Source of the DNA: Hippopus hippopus | Taxonomy: Eukaryota > Mollusca > Bivalvia > Cardiida > Cardiidae | DNA length: 64,000 bases | Assembly (NCBI GenBank): GCA_946811185.2 | Contig: OX328096.1 | Span: forward strand, 70,989,345-71,053,344 | Reading direction: 5' to 3' | Part shown: one piece after another, positions 48,133 to 63,087 of the stretch | Numbering within the stretch: the first letter of the stretch is position 1 | Layout of the letters: every line of letters starts with the position of its first letter | Program-made: the position numbers and the translations under genes | The notes under the pieces: generated by a model | Databases searched by the model: none | The model's input: the letters and a program-made list of their open reading frames with translations, nothing else | Told to the model about the DNA's origin: nothing

Positions 48133-48157
48133 ATTGCGAGTAGTAAAGGAAGGAAGC

Positions 48158-48192
48158 CTAGGGACATACCTAGGCCTGAGTATGTCCCTAGG
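48158..48192. repeat. Palindrome at the Polinton tip
   Basis: CCTAGGGACATAC and GTATGTCCCTAGG are perfect 13-bp arms around CTAGGCCTGA, 19 bp from the end of the element. Outside them GGAAG and CTTCC extend the pairing. The right tip carries the same structure at about 63028-63062. Protein-primed replicons often have terminal foldback or protein-binding sites at this place, so a replication role is possible. Confidence 0.7.
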
Positions 48193-48469
48193 CTGCCTTC
48201 CCTGAGTGCCGTACATCACCCTCCCTGACAAAAATGTGTCCCTAGTTTGCCATCCCGAAATATTTTTTTTTTATTTTGTCCCTAGGCTCCCGTCCCTGAG
48301 CGGGATTTAGCATTCAAAATGGCGGCCTTGTGGAGGACACTCTGGGGATGTGTCCCTATTTGCTGTCCCCGAAAGATTTTTTTTATTTTATCCCTAGGCT
48401 CCCATCCCTGAGCAGGATTTTTTTCTGCAGTTAAAGCAGCAGATGTCGGCCAAAAATGATACATCTTCG

Positions 48470-48690
48470 AGTACTCTATAGTGATCTGCCAGGTCTGATC
48501 ATTGAGTTGGACTTAGTTTTTTCTTCACCTATGTATGATTTTTTCTCTCTAAAAGACTGAGCACTGGGTTGAACTTAGACTTTTTTTACCCTATGAATGA
48601 TTTTCTCTCTTTCTAAATGGCTGATCACTGAGTTGGACTTAGTCTTTTTCTGCATCTATGAATGATTCTTACTCTTTGGAGTGTAACTCT
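48470..48690 (-). repeat. 64-bp tandem repeat, left arm
   Basis: About three units containing TGAGTTGGACTTAGTC and ATGAATGATTTTCTCTC. The right arm has about nine units (62140-62710) and a separate block of about six (60380-60745), so the copy number differs between arms. Confidence 0.75.
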
Positions 48691-48719
48691 TTGGAGTGTG
48701 AGTCTTTGGAACGCGTCTC

Positions 48720-49270
48720 TTCTAAAAGAAAGATAGAACTTTCGTGGTAGATGGTTAGTCCTGAAATGGACTGTTGGGTTAGCTCTGAAAAGAGCTGTGA
48801 CAATTTGAAGAAATGACAACTTGAAGATAGAACTTTCGTCTGACAGCTTGAAGATAAAACTTTCGTCTGACATCTTGAAGATAGAACTTTCGTGGTAGAT
48901 GGTTAGTCCTGAAAAGGACTGTTGGGTTAGCTCTGAAAAGAGCTGTGACAATTTGAAGAAATGACAACTTGAAGATAGAACTTTCGTCTAACAGCTTGAA
49001 GGTAGAACTTTCGTCTGACATCTTGAAGATAGAACTTTCGTGGTAGATGGTTAGTCCTGAAAAGGACTGTTGGGTTAGCTCTGAAAAGAGCTGTGACAAT
49101 TTGAAGAAATGACAACTTGAAGATAGAACTTTCGTCTAACAGCTTGAAGGTAGAACTTTCGTCTGACAATTTGAAGAAATGACAATTTGAAGAAAAGATA
49201 GAACTTACGTCTGACAATTTGAAGAAAGGTAGATCTTCCGTGGTAGATGGTTAGCCCTGAAAAGGGCTGT
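48720..49270 (-). repeat. Tandem histone-like stem-loop array, left arm
   Basis: About three 148-bp units, each with two stem-loops on the minus strand, AGCTCT-TTTC-AGAGCT and AGTCCT-TTTC-AGGACT (for example 49077-49092 and 49053-49068), each followed by AACCCA or AACCA and CACGAAAG. Overlapping open frames of 60-110 codons here are translations of the repeat and are not called as genes. Confidence 0.8.
49253..49268 (-). terminator. Histone-type 3' stem-loop of the left 78-residue gene
   Basis: Minus strand: AGCCCT-TTTC-AGGGCT, then AACCATCTACCACGGAAG. Same position and sequence as 61682-61697 in the other arm. Confidence 0.78.
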
Positions 49271-49312
49271 TGGGGTGTCCCTAAAAGGGACCTGGTTTTG
49301 GAGGTTGTGTTT

Positions 49313-49549
49313 TTAAGCACAACCTCCAACCTTCCTGCATGCTGGACAGCTACTCGCAGCCCGCCTCCTTATCCTTTTTAGCTGCTGCTCGTCCAAGTTG
49401 TATTGAAGTGAGAACGGTGGCTTGTTGTCACTATCCCAGCACTCGGTCTGGGGCACGACGAACTCCTTCTTTTTACCGTCCATCTTATTTTCTTTTGTCG
49501 ATAGCTGGGCAAGCCCGCTGAAACTCATGTCTCGAAGTGCACATTCCAT
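49313..49549 (-). CDS. 78-residue Polinton arm protein, left copy
   Basis: Begins MECALRDMSFSGLAQL at 49549 and ends in SSCPACRKVGGCA. It is identical in every residue to the right-arm copy at 61401-61637. It is charged, with an internal basic helix (QLKRIRRRAA) and a Cys-rich tail (CPAC...GC) that could bind one metal ion with partners. The function is unknown. The promoter has TATAAA about 55 bp upstream of the ATG and a TGACGTCA site at 49640-49647. The stop codon lies inside a 10-bp inverted repeat. Confidence 0.75.
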   Translation of the reverse strand: MECALRDMSFSGLAQLSTKENKMDGKKKEFVVPQTECWDSDNKPPFSLQYNLDEQQLKRIRRRAASSCPACRKVGGCA

Positions 49550-49555
49550 TTTTGT

Positions 49556-49860
49556 TGTAAGTCGGAGAGATGAATGATGTGCGGGAAAATAACGCTGGGT
49601 TTTTTATAGCTTTACAGGAGGATTGAACTAGTTGACCCATGACGTCATTTTCTCCTATGTTTTTCCCGCGTCGGCGTTTCATGCTGTTTTGGCTCCAAAT
49701 TAATGTTATCCAATCAGATTCAGCGTTTTATTTCTAATACTAAATGTTTTATTGTTGACCAACCCATGGGTTTGTTACATTTTCTTGTTCGGGGATTTTA
49801 TTGTTGACCAATCCGTGGGTTTGTTATATTTTCTTGTTCGGGTTAGAAAAAACTAGAGTT
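49556..49860 (-). promoter_or_regulatory. Polinton promoter cassette, left arm, outer
   Basis: On the minus strand: two direct copies of AAGAAAATGTAACAAACCC..GG.TTGGTCAACAATAAAA, a GATTGG (CCAAT) site, CGCCGACGCGGGAAAAA, TGACGTCA (49640-49647), then TATAAA about 35 bp on. Same order as at 61097-61347. Confidence 0.75.
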
Positions 49861-49977
49861 TAACTAAGCTATGACTTTTTTGATTATGAGGCTTCTGACA
49901 AAATGAAAAGAAAGATGTTTATTTTAGATAGCTAGTCCTGAAAAGAGTTGCTTTTTTTGTACAGAATGCACTTTTTT

Positions 49978-50118
49978 TTATCCCCCTCTCTTTCTTTTGA
50001 TTGATTCCATTTTATTTAGCATTTGCATCGGATGTTCAATTTCATGTCTGATATATCTGAAACGTTCTCTTTCTTCTAACCAGAAGAGCAATAAGAGAAA
50101 AAATGTTAATCCAAACAT
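49978..50118 (-). CDS. 46-residue membrane-anchor protein, left copy
   Basis: Starts MFGLTFFLLLLFWLEERER: one short hydrophobic segment at the N-terminus followed by a charged helix and a basic end (KRKRGG). The same frame is present at 60833-60973. It is too short for a database family by eye. In this arm the sequence upstream is the cassette that drives the 88-residue gene in the right arm, because of the 1,676-bp deletion, so this copy has a swapped promoter. Confidence 0.6.
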   Translation of the reverse strand: MFGLTFFLLLLFWLEERERFRYIRHEIEHPMQMLNKMESIKRKRGG

Positions 50119-50129
50119 TGTGCGATACT

Positions 50130-50450
50130 GGGTCAGGTTTTACGAAAGTTAATGGTGAATGTATGAAAAATAACGCAGGGGTTTATACGTTTAAGGAGGA
50201 TTGAAATTTTTTAAAGAGCTCGGACCTGGCAGAAAGCACATACATTTTTTCCATGCTACGTTTCATGCTGTTTTGGCTCCAAATTAATGTTATCCAATCA
50301 GATTCACCGTTGTTTTTTCTAATACTAATTGTTTTATTGTTGACCAACCCGTGGGTTTGTTACATTTTCTTGTTCGGGGGATTTTATTGTTGCCCAATCC
50401 ATAGGTTTGTTACATTTTCTTTTTCGGGTAAGAAAAAACTAGAGTTTAAC
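50130..50450 (-). promoter_or_regulatory. Polinton promoter cassette, left arm, inner (hybrid)
   Basis: Contains the paired 40-bp repeats with TTGGTCAACAATAAAA and the GATTGG site, then AATCCTCCTTAAACGTATAAA (as split minus-strand words), matching 58840-59110. At the word TTATTTTTCATACATTCACC it switches to the leader of the 46-residue gene. A 66-codon open frame here is not a gene. Confidence 0.7.
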
Positions 50451-50539
50451 TAACAGTTATGAGACGTTGTATGGAAAAAATGTAACCAGAACAAGTCTTT
50501 TTTGGGGAAAAAACAGAATGAAGAACTCTATTGTTTTTT

Positions 50540-50960
50540 TAACTTTTATTTATTGAACTTTTATTTACTGAACAGAACTAAACATTGAAACATTTTTTTG
50601 CAATGCATCATAAAAAAATTTCTTGACAATGAAAAAAATTTCTTGACAATGAAAAAAAATCACAATGAAACATTTTTTTTGCAATGCATCATAAAAAAAT
50701 TTCTTGACAATGAAAAAACATTTTCTTAACAATGAAAAAAATCACAAGCAAACATTTTTTTGCAATGCATCATAAAAAAATTTCTTGACAATGAAAAAAC
50801 ATTTTCTTAACAATGAAAAATCGCACTGAAATATTTTTTCACAATGAATTATTCACAACGAATTAATCGCAATGAATTAATCACAATGAATTATTTTTTC
50901 GCAACGAATTATTTTACAATGAATTAATCGCAAAAAAACAGTATATAACAAATTTTATGC
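50540..50960 (-). repeat. AT-rich tandem repeat and poly(A) signals, left arm
   Basis: Repeats of TTTTCATTGTCAAGAAA and TTTTATGATGCATTGCAAAA (minus-strand sense), followed by AATAAA signals on the minus strand near 50546-50576. It forms the 3' flank of the gene at 51000-51662 and is mirrored at 58325-58735. Confidence 0.8.
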
Positions 50961-50999
50961 AATGTAAATTCGCAAACACCACGAGTTTCATATTTGTTT

Positions 51000-51662
51000 T
51001 CATATTCCTACCGTTTTGTTGTTTTTTCTTGGTTGTTTTCGTTCTGTCTTTGGTTTTTTCGGGATCTTGAAATCAACGTGATTGTCAATGTTTTTCCCGT
51101 ATTTGCCCTGCCCTGTCAATATTGGTATAGTTGGTTTTTGATCAACTCGCTGCTTCTTGTGGAGATGGTTACCATCTTCCTCAGATTTCCGCTTTGTTGT
51201 TTTTCTTGGTTGTTTTTCCTTTGGTTGATTTTTCTTTGGTTGATTTTTCTTCACAACACTTACGATAGAGTCCACTAAGTTGTGAAGATTGGATTTATCA
51301 AACTCGAACTCCACAGGAATCTTCACAGGAGTTGTTGAAATGAGCTGATCCTGTTGATGTAGTACCTCGATATTTCTACTGAGCTGATCAGTACTTGCGG
51401 TTAAAGTTTTAATTTCCTCCAAATGTCTGTTTAAAATCTCCATCTGATCTATGATTCGGATCATCATGCTATCTTGTTTCAAATTTAGCTGCTTTACCTC
51501 TTCATAAATGTTGTCAAACACTGTCGCTGGAATGATGGTTGTCGAATTTAACTCCGGTGGTGGATTGATAATTGTCGAATTCATAACTGATGAAAGAACG
51601 TCTCCATTGTTTTCCACTGATGGAAAATCGTCCAAGCTGATTTCATCTAAGTTGTGCTTCAT
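51000..51662 (-). CDS. Polinton coiled-coil protein with basic tail, 220 residues
   Basis: I take the ATG at 51662 (MKHNLDEISLDDF); the open frame extends upstream to a GTG only, through the TATA-proximal leader. Residues about 45-110 look like a coiled coil (EEVKQLNLKQDSMMIRII, then ILNRHLEEIKTL). The C-terminal third is very basic (KKNQPKKNQPKEKQPRK), so nucleic-acid binding is plausible. The TATA box is TTTATA at 51755-51760 (plus strand), with a leader that resembles that of the gene at 59187. The stop TGA lies within the inverted arm, so the arm boundary cuts the end of this gene. The family is unknown. Confidence 0.7.
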   Translation of the reverse strand: MKHNLDEISLDDFPSVENNGDVLSSVMNSTIINPPPELNSTTIIPATVFDNIYEEVKQLNLKQDSMMIRIIDQMEILNRHLEEIKTLTASTDQLSRNIEVLHQQDQLISTTPVKIPVEFEFDKSNLHNLVDSIVSVVKKNQPKKNQPKEKQPRKTTKRKSEEDGNHLHKKQRVDQKPTIPILTGQGKYGKNIDNHVDFKIPKKPKTERKQPRKNNKTVGI

Positions 51663-51879
51663 ATTGTAACTGACTCTGAATATTGATACTGCTTCCGAAG
51701 TGATCGTTAGCTGAGAATCAAAGAAATGGTGAATATATGAAAATAACACCGAGCTTTATACGTTTACAGAGGATTGAAATTTTTAAAGAGGACGGACCTG
51801 GCGGAAAGCACCGGTATTGTACTGTGTGACACCGAATTAGGAGTGGTAAAAAACACCGATATAACCGTCGATTTGATTG

Positions 51880-51975
51880 CACAATGTTAATGAAACGCCG
51901 ACGCGGGAAAAAACATAGGAGAAAATGACGTCATGAGTCATCTAGTTCAATCCTTCTGTAAAGCTATAAAGCCCA
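51880..51975 (+). promoter_or_regulatory. Promoter of the zinc-ribbon gene
   Basis: AAACGCCGACGCGGGAAAA, TGACGTCA at 51926-51933 and TATAAA at 51965-51970, followed 40 bp later by the ATG at 52010. Same module as in the arms but without the paired 40-bp repeats. Confidence 0.75.
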
Positions 51976-52009
51976 GCGATAATTTACATGAAATCATATT
52001 TGTTCCAGA

Positions 52010-52216
52010 ATGGATCGAATTCTTGTATGTCCTCACTGTGCAAACAGATGTCTGATAGAGTGTGGGAAATGTTTTTCCATACTCGAGTATCTTGGGCAGA
52101 AGCATAACTGTCCAGATACAGATGAAGGATTTTATGATGATGATGAAGGTTCGACGATTTACTGCGAACATTGTGGATGTGAAATCATCCCAGTAGATCG
52201 GGCGGTAGAATCGTAG
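52010..52216 (+). CDS. 68-residue double zinc-ribbon-like protein
   Basis: Begins MDRILVCPHCANRCLIECGKC and ends with IYCEHCGCEIIPVDRAVES. Two CXXC pairs (CPHC and CEHC) with further Cys (CLIEC, GKC) and one His could bind one or two zinc ions. An acidic stretch (DEGFYDDDEGS) separates them. It may be a transcription or ssDNA-binding factor, but no family is recognised. The gene has its own CRE/TATA promoter and a histone-type stem-loop 33 bp after the stop. Confidence 0.75.
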   Translation: MDRILVCPHCANRCLIECGKCFSILEYLGQKHNCPDTDEGFYDDDEGSTIYCEHCGCEIIPVDRAVES

Positions 52217-52248
52217 AGCTGGATGTCAATGTGAGATCCTTCAAAAAA

Positions 52249-52264
52249 AGCCCTTTTCAGGGCT
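52249..52264 (+). terminator. Histone-type 3' stem-loop of the zinc-ribbon gene
   Basis: AGCCCT-TTTC-AGGGCT, a 6-bp stem and 4-base loop, followed by AACCATTTAGCACGAAAT. Compare the metazoan histone stem-loop (6-bp stem with a G-C second pair, UUUC loop, ACCCA tail, then a CAAGAAAGA-like element). Confidence 0.8.
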
Positions 52265-52526
52265 AACCATTTAGCACGAAATATCTTTCTTCTCAAATTG
52301 TCAAAAGTAAAAAGACTTATAGTCATAACTAGAAAAAAGTCAAAAGTAAGAAGTAATTATTTTTTATATTTTTATTTCAAAAAAAGAACTTATGTACAAT
52401 GAAAAAATCAAATCATGAACTGTAAAGACAAAAAAATAAATGAACTGTAAAAGACAAAAATGAATGAAAAAAATCAAGTCAGTCTTTTTTGTTTATAATC
52501 AATATTGTATTGAAATCTTTTTTCAC

Positions 52527-53377
52527 TCAGTATGTTTTTTTCTTTTTCTTTGAGATGTCAGATTCACATTTGGTTTTACGTTTTCTTTTCCTATCGTTGT
52601 TTTTTAATTCCACATCTGGACAGATTTTGTCCTCATGTTTTGTTGATTTGTAAAAGAAATAGTTCTTTGTTACTCGTTTTTTCTTCTTTTCGATGTTTTG
52701 CTGTTTTTCCTTTCCGTACGAACAACCCGGTTCTGCAGAAAATTCGTTGTTTTTTAGATCCAAAGTTTGTTGATTTCTTAGATTATCGTCTGTAGATATT
52801 TTTTTCTCTGTCTGTTCTGCTATTTTGCAGATTTCTGAATCGCTGTTAGCCGCTGTGTCGCTCTGCCTGTCTACGGTCTGAGTTTCAACCGATGAGGATA
52901 TAGCTTGTGGTGAACTTTTTTCCATGTATTTTCACTGCAGAATGAATTTAGTGTCCCGACGAATTTCATATCTTTGAAACCACCAACGTTGTAAAATGAT
53001 GGTGAAATCTCAATGTCGTGACTGTGTGGATTCACGTAGACAAAAACAATTGTACCTAGCTGATTTTCTTTTTCTGAACATTCTTTGGCCCAATGTCCTG
53101 CTTCGTTGCATGTGAAACAAATATTTGTTCTCACACCATTCGCACCATATCGTTTGTCAATCATCGCTTGATCCAAAACTCTGTAGCTGGTAGTACGGTA
53201 AACATCTTTTTCTTCTAAATGTTGCTGGGATAAAAATGATCCCACATAGTTTCCGATATGTTTAACATTATACTTTGATGGTATATTGCTGATCTCATAA
53301 TCGTGGGTGTATGGATTAACATACAGATACACCCTCTTACTAAGTGGTGATGTATTTTGCAGCTTTAACTCACTCAT
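52527..53377 (-). CDS. Zinc-knuckle protein with overlapping -1 frame extension
   Basis: The first frame, 53377-52871 (168 residues), starts MSELKLQNTS. It has two copies of a YVNP(Y/H)(T/S)HD(Y/I)EIS motif (near residues 20 and 113) around one CCHC knuckle CFTCNEAGHWAKEC, and is likely nucleic-acid binding. A second frame, 52925-52527 (132 residues, MEKSSPQAIS...), overlaps it by 55 bp in the -1 frame. It encodes a disordered tail ending in basic runs (DRKRKRKTK). The overlap begins at TGGAAAAAAG, where a -1 slip could join them; separate initiation at the ATG of the second frame is also possible. AATAAA on the minus strand at 52376-52371 would end the message. Confidence 0.72.
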
Positions 53378-53470
53378 ATTTTTTATCAGCTGTACTGTCT
53401 GAGATCGAGTAGGAGAATGAATAGATTTTCACAACTAACGGCTTATTTATACACTGTTACAACGGAGAGG

Positions 53471-53533
53471 CTATATAAATTGCTAGTTTTTTCTCACTTC
53501 TGCATTATTGTCTTTTCACTCAGAGCTAAAACA
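53471..53533 (+). promoter_or_regulatory. TATA box and leader of the polymerase gene
   Basis: CTATATAAATTG at 53471-53482 lies about 50 bp before the ATG at 53534. The open frame to its left up to 53417 contains this TATA box, so the upstream start is unlikely to be used. The divergent zinc-knuckle gene starts at 53377, so the two share a 157-bp promoter region. Confidence 0.7.
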
Positions 53534-56071
53534 ATGGGTAAAAGAAAAAGAATAATAACCTATTCAGACAGTGAAAGTGACGACGAGGTGTTTCCACCAA
53601 CAAAAAAGAAAAAAACTAGACCTTTGAAAGAAGAAAGTGACGATGAGGTGTTTCCACCAATAAAAAAGAAAAAAACTAAACCGTTGAAAGAAGAAAGTGA
53701 CAATGAGGTGATTCCACCAACAAAAAAGAAAAAAACTAAACCGTTGAAAGAAGAAAATGATAGCGACGATGAAAGTACCAACTCTAACTTAGACATGAAA
53801 AGTCTATATGATTTAACAGAAAAGGGTAATAAGAAGTCAAGAAAATTTAAAACAGAATCACATGTGCTGATGCTGAGTTTTAAGAAATTTGAAGAATTAA
53901 CACCTCAGAGACTCCTTGGATTATTTGACGATGTTACCCGTGAAATCATTCGAAAGTTAAATGCTAACCCTACGGACATGATTAGGATTACCATCAATCA
54001 TCCTTCGTTGGAAATAGGAATCCATATTCCTTTTTTAGCTGCAGACCAGTTACAAGGTGAAACTATGCTGAATGAAATTGAACGAGTTTTACAATCGAAT
54101 ACAGATTTCGTCTTGAACGATGGATTCATGACATTTGACATCACACATACAATACCACCAAGTGGTAGCGGAAAAACAAAATATAGATCGTCAGAATTAG
54201 ATTCAAAGTTTTTTGCCCAGAAGAAGCAATCTATTATTCAAATTGACAATCATGACCAACTATGTTTTGCAAGAGCTGTTGTTGTGGGAATTTGCTACAG
54301 TGAACGTGAAAACACCGAAGTATGGAATAGAAAATGGGATCGTATTCGTCGTTCAAACCGCCCTCTTCAAAAGACTGAAGCTGAGAAATTGTTACATGAA
54401 GCTGGAGTTTCACCAACACAACCTATAGGAATTGATGAATACAAAAAAATTCAAGCATTCTTGTATGAAAAAGGCTATGTCATTAAAGTTCATCAACAGC
54501 ATTCAAAAGTGGAAAAAATATTTAAACATCCAGAAGTGAAAACCAATAGTAAGATCATACATTTGTACTTTCATCGAAACCATTATGACTACATTAAATC
54601 TATCAAAGGTTTTCTTAGTTGTACATATTATTGTGAGTTCTGTGATGTGGGTTACCCTCACCGGGAAAGTCATGCTTGTTCAAAAATCTGTAAAGGTTGT
54701 TATCGCCAAGGAAAATGTGCATCAGAATCAAAAGAATATGTTTGCAGTGTTTGCAGTAGACGATTTTTTAGTGCTGAATGTTTTGAAAATCACAGAAATG
54801 TTCAAGGTAAAGAAAAGAAATCCATTTGTGAATTAGTGAAACTCTGTTCGAAATGCGGTGCACAATATCTTGTCAGAAAGAAAAATCATGTTTGCAATGG
54901 AAAGAAAAGATGTCATATCTGTAAGAGAATTGTTAACTTTTCTCACCAATGCTATATTCAACCTTACCAAAGTAAGTTGAACCATGACAGCGATGACAAG
55001 ACGAGTTCTTCTGTAGTCAAAAAACCACAGTTTATTTTCTTTGATTTTGAATGCAAACAAGACACAGGTGTACACATCCCAAATTATTGTATCGCACACA
55101 GAGCGTGTGATGAATGTATCGATAAATCACTTGAATTTCATTGTTCTACATGCAGTGAATTTGAAGAGGGTAGGGAAGTTATTTTTCAAGGTGAAAAAAC
55201 TTTGAGTCAATTTTGCAACTGGCTCTTTTCAAAACATCATAAAGGGGTTACGGCTATTGCCCATAATTTCAAAGGCTATGACGGGCAGTTCATTCTTGAC
55301 TATATTGTCAAAGTTGGGTTAAAACTTCCAAAATTGATCATGAATGGAAACAATATTATGAAGTTAGAACTGAATGATGTACGTCTGATCGATTCTTTCA
55401 ATTTCATGAGTTTTGGTTTGGCAAAATTCCCAGCCACCTTTGGTCTTCAAGAAATGAAAAAAGGTTACTTTCCTCACTGGGCGAATACAGATGAATTTTG
55501 GAGTTACATCGGACCCTACTTGGATATGTCTTATTACAAGCCCGACTCAATGTCTGAAGAGGCTAGGTCGAAATTTATAGTTTGGTATAATGACAAAGTT
55601 CGAAATGGTGAGGAATTCAATTTTCAGAAGGAGATGGAAATGTACTGTAGGTCAGACGTTGATATCCTCAGACGAGGATGTGCTGAATTCAGAAAGCTGT
55701 TTATCGAACAGGGCGGTATTTGTCCATTTTTAGAGGCGATTACCATCGCAGATGCCTGTAACAAGGTGTGGCGAAGCAAATATTTACCAGAAAATCAAAT
55801 AGCTATCATTTCAAGTAAAGACTCATCCAGACGTCGCTTTTCTATGAAAGCGATACGATGGGTTCAAAGCGTTGCTCAGGAAAAAGGTATTAATATTCAG
55901 CATGCAAAAAATGGTGGTGAAGCTCAAATCGGGAAATATAGTGTAGATGGTTTTCACCATCAATCAAACACTGTTTATGAATTTCTTGGGGATTTGTATC
56001 ATGGTTGTCCTGTATGCTATACAGATCGAAAACAGATCAATCCTATTAATGGAAAACCCATGTCTGAATAA
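53534..56071 (+). CDS. Protein-primed family B DNA polymerase, N-terminal part (ends at an in-frame stop)
   Basis: From the ATG at 53534 (MGKRKRIITYSDSE) this part has 845 residues. Three tandem 23-residue units (69 bp each, 53569-53775) alternate acidic words and KKKKT(R/K)P, probable nuclear localisation signals. Next comes an OTU-protease-like region (NHDQLCFARAV, later HRNHYDYI). A Cys/His-rich zinc region follows (about residues 365-480; CEFCDVGY, CSVCSRRF, CSKCGAQ, CHICKR). The 3'-5' exonuclease has Exo I FFDFECK, Exo II AHNFKGYDGQF and Exo III YCRSDVDIL. It ends at TAA 56069-56071 inside a linker conserved in Polinton polymerases. The same frame continues open at once. Confidence 0.92.
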   Translation: MGKRKRIITYSDSESDDEVFPPTKKKKTRPLKEESDDEVFPPIKKKKTKPLKEESDNEVIPPTKKKKTKPLKEENDSDDESTNSNLDMKSLYDLTEKGNKKSRKFKTESHVLMLSFKKFEELTPQRLLGLFDDVTREIIRKLNANPTDMIRITINHPSLEIGIHIPFLAADQLQGETMLNEIERVLQSNTDFVLNDGFMTFDITHTIPPSGSGKTKYRSSELDSKFFAQKKQSIIQIDNHDQLCFARAVVVGICYSERENTEVWNRKWDRIRRSNRPLQKTEAEKLLHEAGVSPTQPIGIDEYKKIQAFLYEKGYVIKVHQQHSKVEKIFKHPEVKTNSKIIHLYFHRNHYDYIKSIKGFLSCTYYCEFCDVGYPHRESHACSKICKGCYRQGKCASESKEYVCSVCSRRFFSAECFENHRNVQGKEKKSICELVKLCSKCGAQYLVRKKNHVCNGKKRCHICKRIVNFSHQCYIQPYQSKLNHDSDDKTSSSVVKKPQFIFFDFECKQDTGVHIPNYCIAHRACDECIDKSLEFHCSTCSEFEEGREVIFQGEKTLSQFCNWLFSKHHKGVTAIAHNFKGYDGQFILDYIVKVGLKLPKLIMNGNNIMKLELNDVRLIDSFNFMSFGLAKFPATFGLQEMKKGYFPHWANTDEFWSYIGPYLDMSYYKPDSMSEEARSKFIVWYNDKVRNGEEFNFQKEMEMYCRSDVDILRRGCAEFRKLFIEQGGICPFLEAITIADACNKVWRSKYLPENQIAIISSKDSSRRRFSMKAIRWVQSVAQEKGINIQHAKNGGEAQIGKYSVDGFHHQSNTVYEFLGDLYHGCPVCYTDRKQINPINGKPMSE

Positions 56072-57583
56072 TACGAACGTACTTTTGAACGTATAGCAGA
56101 TATCGAAGATATGGGATATAATGTAGTGTACATTTGGGAACACGAATTTGATGCTAAGATGAAGGATAAAGAGTACAAAAAACTCATTGAAAAGTTATAT
56201 CCACATTGGGACCCTATCGATCCGAGGGATGGTTTGTCCGGGGGAAGATGTAATGCAATAAAAATTGGATATGATGTTGATGAAAAAACCAAAAAGGAAA
56301 TCAAGTACATCGATATCTGTTCTCTATACCCTTATGTTTGTAAACACAAATCCTATCCTGTAGGTCAGCCAAAAATTTTGTCTGCTGAGAATATTGATAT
56401 GAACAATATTCGCCAATATGAGGGATTAATCAAATGCAAAGTTTTGCCTCCAACTGATTTGTTTCACCCCGTTCTCCCAGTTCACTGTAACAACAAAATG
56501 ATGTTTCCCCTCTGTATGAAATGTGCAGAAGAAAGCTCAAACATTTGTAGACATGGTAAAGAAGAGAGGGCTTTGGTCGGAACTTGGGTTACTTTTGAAT
56601 TATTCAAGGCTCTTGACTGTGGTTATCGATTATTGCAAGTGTATGAAATTTGGCATTTCAATTCTGTGTCAGATCAGTTCTTTAAACATTATGTGGACAA
56701 TTTCTTGAAAATTAAGCAAGAAGCCAGTGGTTATCCAGATTGCTGTCAATCAGACTCAGAAAAAGATCAGTTCGTTTGTGAATATGAGAAGGCAGAAGGT
56801 GTTCGTCTTGATCCAAGTTGTATTCAAAGAAATCCTGGGAGAAGATCATTTGCTAAGATTATGTTGAACTGTCTTTGGGGAAAATTAGCTCAGCGTGAAA
56901 AAATGACCCAGACGGAATACATCAGTGATCCGTCTAAATATTTTGAATTAGTCACCAATCCCAATTTCATTGTAAAGCATGTAGAAATCTTTGATGAGAA
57001 CTGTTCATTCATCTTGGTTAACTATGAATCAAAGTTGGAACATATTGACACTCATGCTACAGCCAATGTGGTAGTAGGTTCTTACGTAACAGCTTATGCA
57101 AGGTTGGAATTGTACAGCGTTCTTGAAAAGTTAAAAGATAGAGTTCTGTATTTCGATACAGATAGTTGTATGTACATTCACGACCCCGAATTATGGAATC
57201 CCCCTATTATTAACAGCCGGTTAGGAAAATGGACTGATGAAGAGCCTACTTGTAAAATTACTCAATTCAGAGGACTTGGACCTAAGATTTATGCTTACAA
57301 AATGAAAACAAAAGATGGAAAAGAGATAAGCAAATGTAAAGTAAAGGGGATTACTCTGGATTACAATACAAAACAGGTGGTAAATTTCGATACATATTCG
57401 AAATGTGCTTTGGATCGTACAGTAGAAATCAAAATTCACTATGATTGTAAAATTAAAAGACACAGAGATAGAACGGTTACCAGTGAACCACAAACAAAAA
57501 CGTTTCGTTCTGTATACACCAAGAGAGTCATTGTAAATGGTACTGATACTGTACCCTATGGTTATAAAAGCTTGAGAAAATAA
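56072..57583 (+). CDS. Protein-primed DNA polymerase, C-terminal part (polymerase domain)
   Basis: This is in the same frame as the preceding part, separated only by one TAA; the first ATG is at 56111. Motif A is IDICSLYPYVC, motif B is FAKIMLNCLWGKLA and motif C is VLYFDTDSCMYI with the two catalytic Asp. GPKIYAYK fits the KxY motif. The palm and the TPR-type inserts expected of protein-primed enzymes account for the length. The catalytic residues are intact, and there is no other stop or frameshift from 53534 to 57583. The split therefore looks like one recent nonsense change, a base-calling error or a readthrough site. It would copy the element from a protein primer at its ends. Confidence 0.92.
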   Translation, partial: YERTFERIADIEDMGYNVVYIWEHEFDAKMKDKEYKKLIEKLYPHWDPIDPRDGLSGGRCNAIKIGYDVDEKTKKEIKYIDICSLYPYVCKHKSYPVGQPKILSAENIDMNNIRQYEGLIKCKVLPPTDLFHPVLPVHCNNKMMFPLCMKCAEESSNICRHGKEERALVGTWVTFELFKALDCGYRLLQVYEIWHFNSVSDQFFKHYVDNFLKIKQEASGYPDCCQSDSEKDQFVCEYEKAEGVRLDPSCIQRNPGRRSFAKIMLNCLWGKLAQREKMTQTEYISDPSKYFELVTNPNFIVKHVEIFDENCSFILVNYESKLEHIDTHATANVVVGSYVTAYARLELYSVLEKLKDRVLYFDTDSCMYIHDPELWNPPIINSRLGKWTDEEPTCKITQFRGLGPKIYAYKMKTKDGKEISKCKVKGITLDYNTKQVVNFDTYSKCALDRTVEIKIHYDCKIKRHRDRTVTSEPQTKTFRSVYTKRVIVNGTDTVPYGYKSLRK

Positions 57584-57663
57584 TTTCATATCACATTGTT
57601 GTGTACCAATCACTCAAAGTAAGTCGGGGAAAAATATTAGCAACTGTTCAAAAAATAACAATC

Positions 57664-58320
57664 ATGTTACCGCTACCAATAGAACTACGTGAAAAAATTT
57701 ATGGAGAATTTGTTCGACAGCATACGCTTGATGAACAAACACAGCTTAACATTAAATTTTTCTGTGTGAAAATTTGGATCAAAAAAATGTTTAAATGGGT
57801 TGCAAAAGGAGAAAAGTCCTACAAAGTGTATGCTATATTCAACTTTATTGCGATGATGGTGGACGATTCGGGGATGGATCTCGTTCTCAAGACTTATTTA
57901 GCAGATAGCTGTATGAAAGACAATGTTATTAGTAAACTGTTTCGATCCACAAGCCGATGGACATTTTTTATCATAGGAACAACAGAAGAAAGTTTTCTTA
58001 ACGTTGTGAAAATGAAATCAGTTCTATTTGACTTTTACTTACGCTACAAAAAAGGATCTGTTCATGATTCCTACGGGGAAACAATGGAAACCATGTCAGG
58101 GTATATTCTATTTGATAGAGATGTTACAGAAGAAGTAGTAAATTCAGCTCTTTCAACAAAAGACGCTTATAGACATGTTGCTCCATTCATAGGACTACAA
58201 AATTTCAACGATATGGACAGTGAGTATACAATGTTTTTGGGGTATGACCAATTGCATAAAGACATTACGGAATATGAAAACAAATGTGAAACTCGTGGTA
58301 TTTGCGAATTTGCATTATAA
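57664..58320 (+). CDS. Unknown Polinton protein, 218 residues
   Basis: The ATG at 57664 (MLPLPIELREKIYGEF) follows the polymerase stop by 80 bp; the frame is open to a GTG at 57601, which I do not take as start. The sequence is mostly helical and neutral (FFCVKIWIKKMFKWV, FNFIAMMVDDSG, FFIIGTTEESF) with no Cys pattern and no motif I recognise. It does not look like a capsid or ATPase. Its last 50 bp lie within the right inverted arm. Poly(A) signals follow near 58710 and 58721. It is probably transcribed with or just after the polymerase. Confidence 0.65.
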   Translation: MLPLPIELREKIYGEFVRQHTLDEQTQLNIKFFCVKIWIKKMFKWVAKGEKSYKVYAIFNFIAMMVDDSGMDLVLKTYLADSCMKDNVISKLFRSTSRWTFFIIGTTEESFLNVVKMKSVLFDFYLRYKKGSVHDSYGETMETMSGYILFDRDVTEEVVNSALSTKDAYRHVAPFIGLQNFNDMDSEYTMFLGYDQLHKDITEYENKCETRGICEFAL

Positions 58321-58324
58321 AAAA

Positions 58325-58735
58325 ATTGTTATATACTGTTTTTGCGATTAATTCATTGTAAAATAATTCGTTGCGAAAAAATAATTCATTGTGATTAATT
58401 CATTGCGATTAATTCGTTGTGAATAATTCATTGTGAAAAAATATTTCAGTGCGATTTTTCATTGTTAAGAAAATGTTTTTTCATTGTCAAGAAATTTTTT
58501 TATGATGCATTGCAAAAAAATGTTTGCTTGTGATTTTTTTCATTGTTAAGAAAATGTTTTTTCATTGTCAAGAAATTTTTTTATGATGCATTGCAAAAAA
58601 AATGTTTCATTGTGATTTTTTTTCATTGTCAAGAAATTTTTTTCATTGTCAAGAAATTTTTTTATGATGCATTGCAAAAAAATGTTTCAATGTTTAGTTC
58701 TGTTCAGTAAATAAAAGTTCAATAAATAAAAGTTA
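58325..58735 (+). repeat. AT-rich tandem repeat and poly(A) signals, right arm
   Basis: Units with TTTTCATTGTCAAGAAA and TTATGATGCATTGCAAAA, then AATAAA at 58710-58715 and near 58721-58730. Serves as the 3' end of the unknown 218-residue gene. Confidence 0.8.
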
Positions 58736-58839
58736 AAAAAACAATAGAGTTCTTCATTCTGTTTTTTCCCCAAAAAAGACTTGTTCTGGTTACATTTTTT
58801 CCATACAACGTCTCATAACTGTTAGTTAAACTCTAGTTT

Positions 58840-59110
58840 TTTCTTACCCGAAAAAGAAAATGTAACAAACCTATGGATTGGGCAACAATAAAATCCCCCG
58901 AACAAGAAAATGTAACAAACCCACGGGTTGGTCAACAATAAAACAATTAGTATTAGAAAAAACAACGGTGAATCTGATTGGATAACATTAATTTGGAGCC
59001 AAAACAGCATGAAACGTAGCATGGAAAAAATGTATGTGCTTTCTGCCAGGTCCGAGCTCTTTAAAAAATTTCAATCCTCCTTAAACGTATAAAACCCCGC
59101 GTTATTTTTC
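58840..59110 (+). promoter_or_regulatory. Promoter cassette of the 88-residue gene
   Basis: Paired repeats around TTGGTCAACAATAAAAC, a GATTGG site, AAACAGCATGAAACG, then AATCCTCCTTAAACG and TATAAA at 59089-59094. The CRE seen in the other cassettes is missing here. The motif TTATTTTTCATACATTCACC just downstream recurs at 60778-60797. Confidence 0.72.
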
Positions 59111-59186
59111 ATACATTCACCATTTCTTTGACTCTCAGCTAACGATCACTTCGAAAGCAGTGTCAATATTCGGAAGCAATATCAAT

Positions 59187-59453
59187 ATGGAAGAGGTAAA
59201 TCATCAACTACGTGAGGCTCTCCAAGAGTATCTAAATGCTGGTCAGCAGTTATTGCAACTAACCACTCGTCTCGTAGGAGAGGAGGAACAAAAACAACTG
59301 CGACGTATAACACAGCCATACAAAGACCTCGGCGAAAGATTAGTTCAGCTATTATTAAAGACAACACCGGATATCATTTTGGTTGATATCGAGTTCGGGA
59401 GGAAGATTACAGCATGCCCCATTTGCCAAGCGAATTTCGGATGCTGCCATTAA
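59187..59453 (+). CDS. 88-residue Polinton protein with CPxC tail
   Basis: The ATG at 59187 (MEEVNHQLREALQEYL) is preferred over the GTG at 59160. Residues 1-55 form a probable amphipathic helix or coiled coil (QLLQLTTRLVGEEEQKQL), and the end ACPICQANFGCCH resembles the tail of the 78-residue protein (SCPACRKVGGCA). The function is unknown. It has its own TATA box and a histone-type stem-loop 36 bp after the stop. It is single copy, since the left arm lacks this part. Confidence 0.72.
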   Translation: MEEVNHQLREALQEYLNAGQQLLQLTTRLVGEEEQKQLRRITQPYKDLGERLVQLLLKTTPDIILVDIEFGRKITACPICQANFGCCH

Positions 59454-59488
59454 AAGTGGAAAAAAACACAGCCTCCAAAAAACAAAAC

Positions 59489-59504
59489 AGCCCTTTTCAG
59501 GGCT
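59489..59504 (+). terminator. Histone-type 3' stem-loop of the 88-residue gene
   Basis: AGCCCT-TTTC-AGGGCT followed directly by ACCCA, the exact 3' flank of canonical histone messages, and then CACGAAAG. Confidence 0.83.
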
Positions 59505-59607
59505 ACCCATCTACCACGAAAGTTCTATCTTTCCTCAAATTGTCAAAAAACTCAAAATTGTCAAAAAACTCAAAAGATTCACAATCAAAAAAGTCATAGA
59601 TTAGCCA

Positions 59608-59870
59608 AACTCTAGTTTTTTCTAACCCGAACAAGAAAATGTAACAAACCCACGGATTGGTCAACAATAAAATCCCCGAACAAGAAAATGTAACAAACCC
59701 ACGGGTTGGTCAACAATAAAACATTTAGTATTAGAAATAAAACGCTGAATCTGATTGGATAACATTAATTTGGAGCCAAAACAGCATGAAACGCCGACGC
59801 GGGAAAAACATAGGAGAAAATGACGTCATGGGTCAACTAGTTCAATCCGTCTGAAAAGCTATAAATCTCG
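59608..59870 (+). promoter_or_regulatory. Promoter cassette of the 104-residue gene
   Basis: Two 40-bp direct repeats with GGTCAACAATAAAA, a GATTGG site, CGCCGACGCGGGAAAAA, TGACGTCA at 59821-59828 and TATAAA at 59860-59865, 39 bp before the ATG. Confidence 0.78.
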
Positions 59871-59904
59871 GCGATTTATTTTCCATGCATTTCATTTTTT
59901 CACA

Positions 59905-60219
59905 ATGGCTTCAAGACAATCACCAGTCGTCACTTGGATGGATACTGAGCGAAAGTTAATAAGAGCAAGGAGACAAATCGTCTTACTTAAACAACGCCTA
60001 GCTGCAGTGAGAAGACGATACGAGAGGGCTGAGCTTGCTAATAACAGGCTGTTCTGTTATAACCTTCGGATGAAGGAACTCATTATTGAGGGCATGCTTG
60101 AGATGTATTTTCAGTATGTTATTTTAAAAACTGAGCAGGTGACCCGTCTTTTCCGTGCGCAAATCGCCACTGAAAGGAGTGAGTCAGACAGTGAATCGAC
60201 TGATGCTGATACTGAATAA
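59905..60219 (+). CDS. 104-residue basic coiled-coil protein with acidic tail
   Basis: Starts MASRQSPVVTWMDTERKL. Residues 15-50 are strongly basic and helical (RARRQIVLLKQRLAAVRRRY), the middle is a leucine-rich helix (LIIEGMLEMYFQYVIL) and the end is acidic (SESDSESTDADTE). This could be a bZIP-like or DNA-condensing protein, or a small structural protein; no family is recognised. It has its own CRE/TATA promoter and a stem-loop 31 bp after the stop. Confidence 0.74.
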   Translation: MASRQSPVVTWMDTERKLIRARRQIVLLKQRLAAVRRRYERAELANNRLFCYNLRMKELIIEGMLEMYFQYVILKTEQVTRLFRAQIATERSESDSESTDADTE

Positions 60220-60250
60220 ACATTTTCATAAAATCAGCTCTTCTCAAAAC

Positions 60251-60266
60251 AGCCCTTTTCAGGGCT
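60251..60266 (+). terminator. Histone-type 3' stem-loop of the 104-residue gene
   Basis: AGCCCT-TTTC-AGGGCT, AACCATCTAC, then CACGAAAG 10-17 bases beyond the AACCA start, as in the other copies. Confidence 0.82.
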
Positions 60267-60339
60267 AACCATCTACCACGAAAGTTCTATCTTTCTTCAA
60301 ATTGTCATTTCTTCAAATTGTCAAACTTCTTTCTTTTAG

Positions 60340-60745
60340 AAGAGTTACACTCCAAAGACTCACACTCCAGAGAGTTACACTCCAAAGAGTAAAAAAATCA
60401 TTCATAGATGCAGAAAAAAAGACTAAGTCCAACTCAATGTCCAGACATTTAGAAAAGAAAATTCATTCACAGAATAAAAAAGCTAAGTCCAACCCAGTGC
60501 TCAGTCTTTTAGAGAAAAAAATCATTTATAGATGTAAAAAAGACTAAGTCCAACTCAATGCTCAGACATTTAGAAAGAGAAAAAATCATACATAGGTTTA
60601 AAAAGTCTAAGTTCAACTCAGTGCTCTGACATATAGAAATCATTTAAAGTGTAAAAAAATCTAAGTTCAACTCAGCGATATAGGGACAAATTCCATTTAG
60701 AGTGAAAAAAATCATTCATAGGATGAAAAAAACTAAAAAAAGTGA
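60340..60745 (+). repeat. 64-bp repeat block, internal
   Basis: Starts with three or four short units of AGTTACACTCCAAAGA and continues with about six units containing CTAAGTCCAACTCA and TTTAGAAA..AAAATCAT. It lies directly 3' of the stem-loop of the 104-residue gene. Open frames in it are repeat translations. Confidence 0.75.
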
Positions 60746-60756
60746 TCCATCACACG

Positions 60757-60832
60757 TATAAAACATCAAGCTCTTGATTATTTTTCATACATTCACCATT
60801 AACTTTCGTAAAACCTGACCCAGTATCGCACA
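60757..60832 (+). promoter_or_regulatory. Short promoter of the right 46-residue gene
   Basis: TATAAAA at 60757-60763, TTATTTTTCATACATTCACC at 60778-60797, and the ATG at 60833. The paired 40-bp repeats and CRE are absent. Confidence 0.65.
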
Positions 60833-60973
60833 ATGTTTGGATTAACATTTTTTCTCTTATTGCTCTTCTGGTTAGAAGAAAGAGAACGTTTCAGATATAT
60901 CAGACATGAAATTGAACATCCGATGCAAATGCTAAATAAAATGGAATCAATCAAAAGAAAGAGAGGGGGATAA
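60833..60973 (+). CDS. 46-residue membrane-anchor protein, right copy
   Basis: Begins MFGLTFFLLLLFWLEERER. Residues 3-14 form a hydrophobic segment just long enough for a signal anchor, followed by a charged helix with Met repeats (HPMQMLNKMES) and a KRKRGG end. Same frame and length as 49978-50118, which supports it as a real gene despite the size. The 3' element at about 61001-61016 has the TTTC loop region but a poorly paired stem. Confidence 0.62.
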   Translation: MFGLTFFLLLLFWLEERERFRYIRHEIEHPMQMLNKMESIKRKRGG

Positions 60974-61096
60974 AAAAAGTGCATTCTGTACAAAAAAAGC
61001 AACTCTTTTCAGGACTAGCTATCTTAAATAAACATCTTTCTTTTCATTTTGTCAAAAGCCTCATAATCAAAAAAGTCATAGCTTAGTTAAACTCTA

Positions 61097-61347
61097 GTTT
61101 TTTCTAACCCGAACAAGAAAATGTAACAAACCCACGGATTGGTCAACAATAAAATCCCCGAACAAGAAAATGTAACAAACCCATGGGTTGGTCAACAATA
61201 AAACATTTAGTATTAGAAATAAAACGCTGAATCTGATTGGATAACATTAATTTGGAGCCAAAACAGCATGAAACGCCGACGCGGGAAAAACATAGGAGAA
61301 AATGACGTCATGGGTCAACTAGTTCAATCCTCCTGTAAAGCTATAAA
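61097..61347 (+). promoter_or_regulatory. Promoter cassette of the right 78-residue gene
   Basis: Two 40-bp repeats, a GATTGG site, CGCCGACGCGGGAAAAA, TGACGTCA at 61304-61311, TATAAA at 61342-61347 and ATG at 61401. Nearly identical to 59608-59865 and to the inverse of 49556-49860. Confidence 0.78.
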
Positions 61348-61400
61348 AAACCCAGCGTTATTTTCCCGCACATCATTCATCTCTCCGACTTACAACAAAA

Positions 61401-61637
61401 ATGGAATGTGCACTTCGAGACATGAGTTTCAGCGGGCTTGCCCAGCTATCGACAAAAGAAAATAAGATGGACGGTAAAAAGAAGGAGTTCGTCGTGCCCC
61501 AGACCGAGTGCTGGGATAGTGACAACAAGCCACCGTTCTCACTTCAATACAACTTGGACGAGCAGCAGCTAAAAAGGATAAGGAGGCGGGCTGCGAGTAG
61601 CTGTCCAGCATGCAGGAAGGTTGGAGGTTGTGCTTAA
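61401..61637 (+). CDS. 78-residue Polinton arm protein, right copy
   Basis: Identical to the left-arm product (49313-49549). Begins MECALRDMSF and ends CPACRKVGGCA. The stop codon lies within the loop side of an inverted repeat (GGAGGTTGTG ... CACAACCTCC, 61623-61650). Two stem-loops follow, GTCCCT-TTT-AGGGAC at 61659-61673 and the standard one at 61682-61697. Function unknown. The perfect identity between arms shows strong homogenisation or a recent origin. Confidence 0.77.
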   Translation: MECALRDMSFSGLAQLSTKENKMDGKKKEFVVPQTECWDSDNKPPFSLQYNLDEQQLKRIRRRAASSCPACRKVGGCA

Positions 61638-61681
61638 AAACACAACCTCCAAAACCAGGTCCCTTTTAGGGACACCCCAAC

Positions 61682-61697
61682 AGCCCTTTTCAGGGCT
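61682..61697 (+). terminator. Histone-type 3' stem-loop of the right 78-residue gene
   Basis: AGCCCT-TTTC-AGGGCT, then AACCATCTACCACGGAAG, 45 bp after the stop codon. Confidence 0.8.
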
Positions 61698-62080
61698 AAC
61701 CATCTACCACGGAAGATCTACCTTTCTTCAAATTGTCAGACGTAAGTTCTATCTTTTCTTCAAATTGTCATTTCTTCAAATTGTCAGACGAAAGTTCTAC
61801 CTTCAAGCTGTTAGACGAAAGTTCTATCTTCAAGTTGTCATTTCTTCAAATTGTCACAGCTCTTTTCAGAGCTAACCCAACAGTCCTTTTCAGGACTAAC
61901 CATCTACCACGAAAGTTCTATCTTCAAGATGTCAGACGAAAGTTCTACCTTCAGGCTGTCAGACAAAAGTTCTATCTTCAAGTTGTCATTTCTTCAAATT
62001 GTCACAGCTCTTTTCAGAGCTAACCCAACAGTCCTTTTCAGGACTAACCAACTACCACGAAAGTTCTATCTTTCTTTTAG
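61698..62080 (+). repeat. Tandem histone-like stem-loop array, right arm
   Basis: Paired stem-loops at 61858-61873 and 61882-61897, and again 148 bp later at 62006-62021 and 62030-62045. The first of each pair is AGCTCT-TTTC-AGAGCT + AACCCA. The second is AGTCCT-TTTC-AGGACT + AACCA. The stems change by compensating substitutions. Between them lie repeats of CGAAAGTTCTA(T/C)CTTCA. Confidence 0.82.
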
Positions 62081-62139
62081 AAGAGATGCACTCCAAAAGA
62101 GTTATACTCCCGAGAGTTATACTGCAAAGAGTAAGAATC

Positions 62140-62715
62140 ATACATAGGTGTAGAAAAAAGACTAAGTCCAACTCAATGGTCAACCTTTTAGAAAGAGAGA
62201 AAATCATTCATAGGGGAAAAAAGCTAAGACCAACTCAGTGATATAGGATAAATTTCCTTTTAGAAAAGAGAAATCATTCATAGAGATGCAAAAAAAGTCT
62301 AAGTCCAACTCAATGGTTAGGCAATTAGAAAGAAAAAAATCATACGTAGGCGAAGAAAAAGACTAAGTACAACTCAGTGCTCAGACATTTAGAAAGAAAA
62401 AATCATACATAGGTGAAGAAAAAACTAAGTAAAACTCAGTGCTCAGGCTTTTAGAAAGAGAAAAAAATCATCCATAGGGTGAAAAGTCTAAGTCCAACTC
62501 AATGGCCAGGCTTTTAGAAAGAGAGAAAATCATCCATAGGGTAAAAAAACTAAGTCCATCTCACTGACCAGACATTTAGAAAGAGAAAAAAATCATTCAT
62601 AGAGATGCAGAAAAAAAGACTAAGTCCAACTCAGTGATCAGGCATTTAGAAAGAGAGAAAACCAATCATAGGGTGAAAAAACTAAGTCCAACTCAGTGAT
62701 CTGACCATTTTTTAC
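62140..62715 (+). repeat. 64-bp tandem repeat, right arm tip
   Basis: About nine units with CTAAGTCCAACTCA(G/A)TG and TTTAGAAAGAGA, ending just before TTTTTTACCCAGACC. The left arm has about three. Confidence 0.78.
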
Positions 62716-63087
62716 CCAGACCGTTAGTCATAAGGCCGGCATTTTGAATGCTAAATCCCTCTCAGGGTAGAGAGAATAGGCAAAACTCCCCCCCCCTTTT
62801 CCCTTTTTTGCAAAAAATACCGCTCAGGGAAGAGAGCCTGGGGCATTTTTATCCCCAGAGTATCCTCCACAAGGCCGCCATTTTGAATGCTATGATTCTA
62901 TTTATAGTAACATTTTCATGCGGAATCTCGGACTTTATCGCTTACTCGCAACTTTTCGGACCTTCGGAGGGCAAATTAGCCCACATTTTTGTCAGGGACG
63001 GTGATATAGTGCACTCAGGGAAGGCAGCCTAGGGACATACTCAGGCCTAGGTATGTCCCTAGGCTTCCTTCCTTTACTACTATTGCG

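Follow-up and report, generated by a model that had tools for sequence, protein, structure and literature searches.

Replication-dependent histone genes are short and intronless, and their mRNAs end in a 6-bp stem with a UUUC loop, an ACCCA-type tail and a purine block. Hairpins are also known to mark the 3′ ends of mRNAs in a DNA virus, Mimivirus, where they act as polyadenylation signals and the transcripts are polyadenylated. Polintons, or Mavericks, are mobile elements recognised by their AGT/ACT ends, a 6-bp target-site duplication and a family B DNA polymerase (PolB); PMC8097293 gives this duplication length, and this as an end motif, for vertebrate Mavericks. Here, we describe a Polinton-like element in a window of 64 kb, the whole stretch of DNA that was analysed, from the genome of the bivalve Hippopus hippopus (contig OX328096.1). 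Four small genes of this element, A to D, carry 3′ ends that are laid out like those of the host's own histone genes. We estimate at roughly 84% the probability that these genes imitate replication-dependent histone genes and are processed as histone mRNAs are, which would probably leave their transcripts non-polyadenylated. In contrast to the situation in Mimivirus, the signal would then copy the histone pathway of the host. All positions follow the numbering of the window, of which both strands were considered; copies and sister loci were compared at the DNA level within the host assembly (1.07 Gb).

Histone-type modules behind four small genes

An earlier note on this DNA had reported 6-bp stems with a TTTC loop 31-45 bp after stop codons, followed by an AACCA or ACCCA tail and a purine block, and each of these statements was confirmed. 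The stem AGCCCT-TTTC-AGGGCT occurs at 52249, 59489, 60251 and 61682 on the plus strand and at 49253-49268 on the minus strand, behind a second copy of gene D (Table 1). Its distance from the stop codon is 32, 35, 31 and 44 nucleotides (nt) in A, B, C and D, respectively. The tail reads AACCA in A, C and D and ACCCA in B, and the purine block reads CACGAAAG in B and C, CACGAAAT in A and CACGGAAG in D. Further downstream stands a third block, the TTGTCA block AATTGTCA, which occurs 20 times in the window versus 6.3 expected, with 16 of the 20 occurrences inside the element. The earlier note mentions neither this block nor the histone-like promoter boxes, the gene of 220 amino acids (aa) or what may be a fifth, decayed cassette. 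The pattern TTTC-N6-AMCCA was found 10 times in the window, against an expectation of 2.1, and a count of 10 was not reached in any of 100 shuffles.

The variant stems that the note had listed as further copies (AGTCCT/AGGACT and AGCTCT/AGAGCT) do exist, but they lie in tandem arrays with units of about 148 bp, in each terminal repeat on the far side of gene D, rather than each at a gene end. One of them, near 48772 on the minus strand, is mismatched (AGTCCA). In an alignment of ten sequences, a second hairpin formed by the purine block and a CTTTC tract was predicted, with little covariation. The main stem showed no covariation in these ten rows because its pairs hardly vary there. By eye, a long hairpin has the gene D stop codon in its loop, and a short second hairpin with a 3-nt loop, together with ACCCCA, precedes the canonical stem of this gene (61623-61682 and its mirror).

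The histone genes of the host provide the reference. At least 74 scored matches to the Rfam Histone3 model (RF00032) were found in the host assembly, 73 on a single contig (C15) and 72 of them at 40.57-41.47 Mb. The host histone repeat unit (L009) comprises H4, H2B, H2A, H1 and H3, and a separate H2A is present in L012. All six of these genes and all four element genes compared (6/6 and 4/4) have the same layout of three blocks. The distance from stop codon to stem is 28-39 nt in the host versus 31-44 nt in the element, the purine block starts 11 or 12 nt versus 13 nt past the stem, and the TTGTCA block (GTGTCA in H2B) starts 29-33 nt versus 33-35 nt past the stem. The latter block is part of neither the stem nor the purine element by which histone 3′ ends are known. 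A pyrimidine tract precedes it in most of the six host genes.

The histone 3′ ends of the host score 30.0-37.9 bits with Histone3. In a permissive scan of 47000-64000, the same model gave ten full-length matches on stems of the element (17.3-28.5 bits, best E 1.5e-4), and no other Rfam family matched this region with E below 0.1. We also built a covariance model, R1, solely from the six host histone 3′ ends and scored it along the full length of both strands of the window; its E-values are rough because the calibration was short. The ranking was headed by B (55.2 bits), C (52.6), A (50.9) and both copies of D (41.6), followed by array stems (three at 38.6 bits, then 31.0). All nine matches with E<0.001 lie in the element, and the best match outside it reached 16.9 bits (E 0.32). 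The possible decayed cassette was not significant (14.2 bits, E 1.2, at 60998-61058). A to D each have a 6-bp stem, a 4-nt U-rich loop, an ACCCA-like flank, a downstream purine element and a match to the host.

The likeness to replication-dependent histone genes covers the stem, UUUC loop, ACCCA-type tail and purine block at matching spacing, the short intronless open reading frames (ORFs) and, in part, the promoter boxes. The differences are that A to D encode no histone family in Pfam, that their closing stem pair is A-U, and that they belong to a high-copy mobile element. No Pfam family was found for proteins A to D at the curated cut-off, and their Pfam matches up to E 0.1 included no histone family. 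Cysteine motifs are present in proteins A, B and D. The AlphaFold2 model of the gene A protein was too poor for a structure search (mean predicted local distance difference test score, pLDDT, 59.5).

Table 1. Positions of the element, its genes, 3′ modules, promoter boxes and repeats in the window.
Feature	Position	Strand	Remarks
Left target-site duplication	48133..48138	.	6 bp, ATTGCG
Polinton-like element	48139..63081	.	14,943 bp; exact ends 5'-AGTAGT...ACTACT-3'; inverted repeats
Mirror stem array, left terminal repeat	48723..49092	-	R1 38.6, 38.6, 18.3 bits
3′ module of left gene D copy	49208..49274	-	stem 49253-49268; R1 41.6 bits, E 2e-6
Gene D copy, left terminal inverted repeat	49313..49549	-	
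220-aa ORF	51000..51662	-	histone-like promoter boxes; no histone-type end
Promoter box TTCAATCC, gene A	51946..51953	+	upstream of TATA box; extended host H2B match, reached by 1/60 shuffles
Gene A	52010..52216	+	68 aa, Cys-rich (CPHC, CGKC, CEHC); sister-locus homologues 56-66% identical
Gene A 3′ module	52243..52307	+	stem 52249-52264, CACGAAAT, AATTGTCA; R1 50.9 bits, E 2.3e-8; Rfam Histone3 24.8 bits
PolB, upstream open frame	53417..56071	+	homologues; no histone-type end; no R1 match below E 1
PolB, downstream open frame (DNA_pol_B_2)	56111..57583	+	PF03175 E 1.4e-28; no histone-type end
218-aa ORF	57664..58320	+	no assigned family; no histone-type end
AATAAA cluster downstream of PolB and 218-aa ORF	58710..58730	+	mirror 50545-50565, minus strand
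Gene B promoter box	59036..59061	+	23/26 letters as in host H1 promoter
Promoter box TTCAATCC, gene B	59070..59077	+	inside 15-letter exact match to host H2A.b
Gene B	59187..59453	+	88 aa, C-terminal CPICQANFGCC
Gene B 3′ module	59483..59549	+	stem 59489-59504, ACCCA, CACGAAAG, AATTGTCA; R1 55.2 bits, E 2.8e-9; Histone3 28.5 bits, E 1.5e-4
Promoter box TTCAATCC, gene C	59841..59848	+	no host match beyond shuffles
Gene C	59905..60219	+	104 aa; basic first part, acidic tail (by eye); homologues in sister loci
Gene C 3′ module	60245..60311	+	stem 60251-60266; R1 52.6 bits, E 1e-8
46-aa ORF, possible decayed fifth cassette	60833..60973	+	weak stem near 61003, about 29 nt past stop
Promoter box TTCAATCC, gene D	61323..61330	+	extended host H2B match at equal distance from ATG; 0/60 shuffles
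Gene D	61401..61637	+	78 aa, C-terminal CPACRKVGGCA; relatives P0121-P0124
Gene D 3′ module	61676..61742	+	stem 61682-61697; R1 41.6 bits, E 2e-6
Tandem stem array beyond gene D	61858..62079	+	AGCTCT/AGAGCT, AGTCCT/AGGACT; R1 38.6 and 31.0 bits
Right target-site duplication	63082..63087	.	6 bp, ATTGCG

Promoters, copies and sister loci

Five promoters of the element were compared with six host histone promoters, giving 30 comparisons with 60 shuffles each, of which 14 scored high enough to be listed. Five of the listed comparisons beat all 60 shuffles: B with H1 and H2A.b, D with H2B, and the 220-aa gene with H1 and H2A.b. The comparison of A with H2B was reached by 1/60 shuffles, and the other eight, including both listed for gene C, by 5-13/60. 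With up to three mismatches allowed, the 26-mer of host H1 matches the window at no place other than the region upstream of gene B and its mirror, versus 0.00 expected. These results suggest that histone promoter boxes are shared clearly by B and D and weakly by A, and that C, taken on its own, does not share them beyond chance. Genes C and D are preceded by stretches that share 96% identity (59570-59869 in the case of C). In two sister promoters of gene C (L074 and L075a), GGGTGCTTTCGCCC..GGAACGCGCTCTTAATT is followed by GGTCAATCC, which by eye is close to the H4, H1 and H2A boxes of the host. Cassettes C, D and A contain sites that we take to be cyclic AMP response element (CRE)-like and E2F-like.

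A strict module pattern gave 3,561 + 3,496 = 7,057 matches in the host assembly, array stems included, versus none in the reversed control. We fetched 30 loci with an exact match to module B, some of them representing two copies of one element. In these loci, R1 gave 83 matches with E at most 0.01, and an ORF of at least 40 aa ended at most 50 nt upstream of 56 of the 60 AGCCCT stems, compared with 1505 of 18000 random positions; the four stems without such an ORF belong to gene B copies. Because the copies are near-identical, this result indicates recurrence, not long conservation.

Two diverged sister loci, L074 and L075, have a different spacer and contain homologues of genes A and C. The sister gene A proteins share 56-66% aa identity, and the sister gene C proteins are identical at 30/70, 27/70 and 25/53 aligned residues, the third frame being short. 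Both loci were chosen from matches to the module pattern, so that in one C module per locus the agreement in stem, tail and CGAAAG was imposed by the choice, which involved neither the remaining modules of these loci nor any TTGTCA block. The gene C module of the window agrees with those of three sister C genes at 59, 56 and 56 of 66 positions (85-89%; the last module is an unselected one), whereas only about half of the positions agree in the coding DNA, between stop and stem and over the 150 nt past the module, which is background. For gene A, agreement is 54/66, 48/67 and 50/67 positions in the modules and no more than about half in the flanks, a contrast with the flanks only, because the coding DNA of this gene is also kept at about 70%. 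Seven stems with five or six pairs were found in the sister loci, with R1 scores of 41.5-57.1 bits, and five of them stand 25-41 nt past the stop codon of a small ORF. The purine block reads CAAGAAAGAG in two sister genes. Conservation extends to the unpaired blocks downstream.

Variation within the stem bears on the molecule in which it functions. At one stem position the paired forms are C-G and T-A, and a single change in either yields T·G, which pairs in RNA, or C·A, which is unpaired; on DNA without strand bias the two would be expected to be about equally common. Genome-wide, we found 331 G·U and 17 A·C variants, versus none of either in reversed controls; the ratio is not a count of independent events because many variants are related by descent (paired positions at repeated spacings). 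The ratio of 331:17 points to a function as RNA in the sense orientation.

Proposed histone-type processing and its alternatives

The histone-type 3′ ends and, in part, promoters suggest that the element borrows the S-phase histone-mRNA machinery of its host. The earlier note had proposed such a use, and the host-like layout, the RF00032 scores and the recurrence at gene ends lend support to the proposal. What we observed are the cis-elements with their spacing, their match to the histone genes of the host and their return in copies and in sister loci, together with counts of variants that are consistent with selection on a stem in RNA. As predicted from these signals, host SLBP would bind the stem, the U7 small nuclear ribonucleoprotein (snRNP) would pair with the purine block, and CPSF73 would cut a few bases past the stem. 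The mRNAs of A to D would lack poly(A), and their synthesis and stability would largely be confined to S phase, a time at which the polymerase of the element could use the replication state of the host. One simple idea of the benefit is that small accessory proteins would appear exactly during host DNA replication. The stem arrays in the terminal repeats may serve as back-up processing sites for the outermost gene. We consider it likely that this is a lineage of mobile elements whose gene set mimics histone genes in promoter and 3′ end, and so engages the histone locus body, U7 snRNP, SLBP and S phase.

If this is true, non-histone animal mRNAs of the histone class exist in great number (7,057 module matches, array stems included), and a selfish DNA has tied itself to S phase through copied cis-signals rather than an encoded regulator. 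Poly(A)-selected RNA sequencing would miss such transcripts, and the elements could look silent. The modules also offer naturally occurring variants with which the importance of the parts of the histone 3′ signal could be tested, the AATTGTCA block common to host histone genes among them. The earlier note knew of no report of histone-type ends in Polintons, and we found none for Polintons or other mobile elements in the accessible text of the open-access literature searched. The combination of two known kinds, Polinton and histone-type 3′ end, would be new.

Several observations weigh against histone-type processing of A to D. At the gathering score of 34, RF00032 has no match in the window (best element stem 28.5 bits), and the stems score with this model only at permissive settings; the absence is weak counter-evidence, because four host histone genes of the cluster (H2A, H2B, H3 and H1; 30.0-33.5 bits) miss the cut-off as well. 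The closing stem pair is A-U in the element versus G-C in the six host genes. A search of the host for U7 small nuclear RNA (RF00066) gave one weak match without a visible 3′ hairpin (25.9 bits, E 0.77), the U7 core pattern gave 101 matches versus 89 in the reversed control, and none of six U7-core matches read as short stretches was convincing; the same RF00066 search also matched in 6 of 14 prokaryote control genomes. Regarding the promoters, 16 of the 30 comparisons scored too low to be listed, shuffles reached nine of the 14 listed ones, KTCAATCC is not enriched in the window (8 versus 5.3 expected, with 8 reached by 19/100 shuffles), and the 220-aa gene has histone-like promoter boxes and no histone-type end. 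Signals for polyadenylation are near as well, with AATAAA 171, 162 and 207 nt past the stems of A, B and C, and the stop codons of both C and B overlap AATAAA or ATTAAA. The stem arrays stand apart from gene ends. The copies are related by descent and their counts are not independent events, two of the sister modules match in part by construction, and the gene A module is hardly better kept than gene A coding DNA. That stems stand at gene ends in copies and sister loci was true of most. Two exceptions in the sister loci are both in L074: the gene A stem lies 70 nt past the stop codon, beside a long palindrome, and no ORF of 45 codons precedes a stem with five pairs and TCGTCA. Finally, the exact stem module was absent from IMG/VR contigs and GTDB genome contigs, no relative of PolB or gene A was confirmed in IMG/VR, and no relatives of P0125 were found in GTDB contigs.

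The stems might instead act at the level of DNA, as signals for replication, packaging or recombination or as cruciforms, with an incidental likeness to histone ends. Their occurrence in tandem arrays inside the terminal inverted repeats would fit such a role, as would the extreme ends of the element, which by eye are palindromic (48148-48201). Yet G·U outnumbers A·C by 331 to 17, although each is a single mismatch in DNA; moreover, the stems have one orientation relative to genes, the unpaired downstream blocks are conserved too, and a model built from host histones detects the stems. We regard a role in DNA as highly improbable. It is also very unlikely that the modules are a functionless relic of a single capture of a histone 3′ region, with transcripts polyadenylated downstream. 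The copies are indeed very recent, a 490-aa piece of PolB being 98-100% identical in 87 of the 87 matches listed; AATAAA signals lie downstream, and the window may contain a decayed cassette. A relic does not agree, however, with sister gene C modules that are 85-89% identical while coding DNA and flanks are at background, with a module found on several unrelated small genes and not after PolB, or with the excess of G·U.

Another possibility is that the ends are bifunctional, being histone-type in cycling cells and subject to read-through or to upstream polyadenylation in other cells. Polyadenylated forms of A to C are possible because of the AATAAA or ATTAAA signals near their stops and stems, before as well as after the latter, and host H1 likewise has AATAAA between stop and stem. 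Such ends are reported for some human histone genes, and precedents include dual processing of human H2AC18 (PMC9756948) and polyadenylated H2B mRNAs (PMC3661734). No direct evidence speaks against bifunctional ends. We consider them possible, if rather unlikely; they are compatible with histone-type processing of A to D, and the odds of the two overlap.

Borders, polymerase and other parts of the element

The earlier note had called the element a Polinton. Its (AGT)2//(ACT)2 ends and 6-bp target-site duplication, the characters given in PMC8097293, agree with this name, as do the terminal inverted repeats, the length of about 15 kb and a PolB recognised in the Pfam scan (PF03175, E 1.4e-28). 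The other core genes were not recognised: no RVE integrase was found among 10 chosen ORFs scanned with Pfam, a scan outside which shorter or interrupted frames fell, and no convincing packaging ATPase, protease or capsid among 10 ORFs (Pfam) or 8 ORFs (PHROGs). A terminase model matched gene A in PHROGs at E 0.027 only and was discounted. We chose the label Polinton-like because PolB is the sole core gene recognised among the ORFs scanned. The element also differs from Polintons in that its terminal repeats hold genes and stem arrays. Compared with the left repeat, the right terminal repeat has, within 58317-60978, about 1.6 kb extra (about 59125-60765), which contains genes B and C. By eye, a near-palindrome of 54 nt occupies each extreme end (48148-48201 and 63019-63072).

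The PolB copy of the window is interrupted into two open frames; uninterrupted copies exist in the host assembly, where the 490-aa piece has at least 87 matches; the open frame has 1,250 codons or more at 75 of the 87 listed. Among the best 120 of 598 matches to PolB, the named relatives are from Mercenaria, Saccostrea, Crassostrea, Ostrea, Haliotis and the anemone Exaiptasia, Mercenaria being the closest of those named. In 30 loci consisting of the PolB piece with 1.5 kb on each side, that of the window included, R1 found no histone-type module near PolB at E up to 1. PolB and the 218-aa ORF both run into the AATAAA cluster at 58710-58730, and their transcripts are probably polyadenylated.

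A search of the protein collection for relatives of gene A gave three matches among four candidates. One of these is in a metagenome-assembled genome of Candidatus Thiodiazotropha and is perhaps host DNA. Elsewhere in the host assembly, module series about 760-800 bp apart (C1:5162414-5168252 and C1:15237272-15245398 of G000) suggest, by their positions only, other multi-cassette elements. An isolated histone-type stem was found at L011:5067-5116 (C8:42665067), scoring 31.4 bits with Histone3 and 28.5 bits with R1. It lies about 490 nt past a 386-aa ORF that we take to resemble a Harbinger-type transposase.

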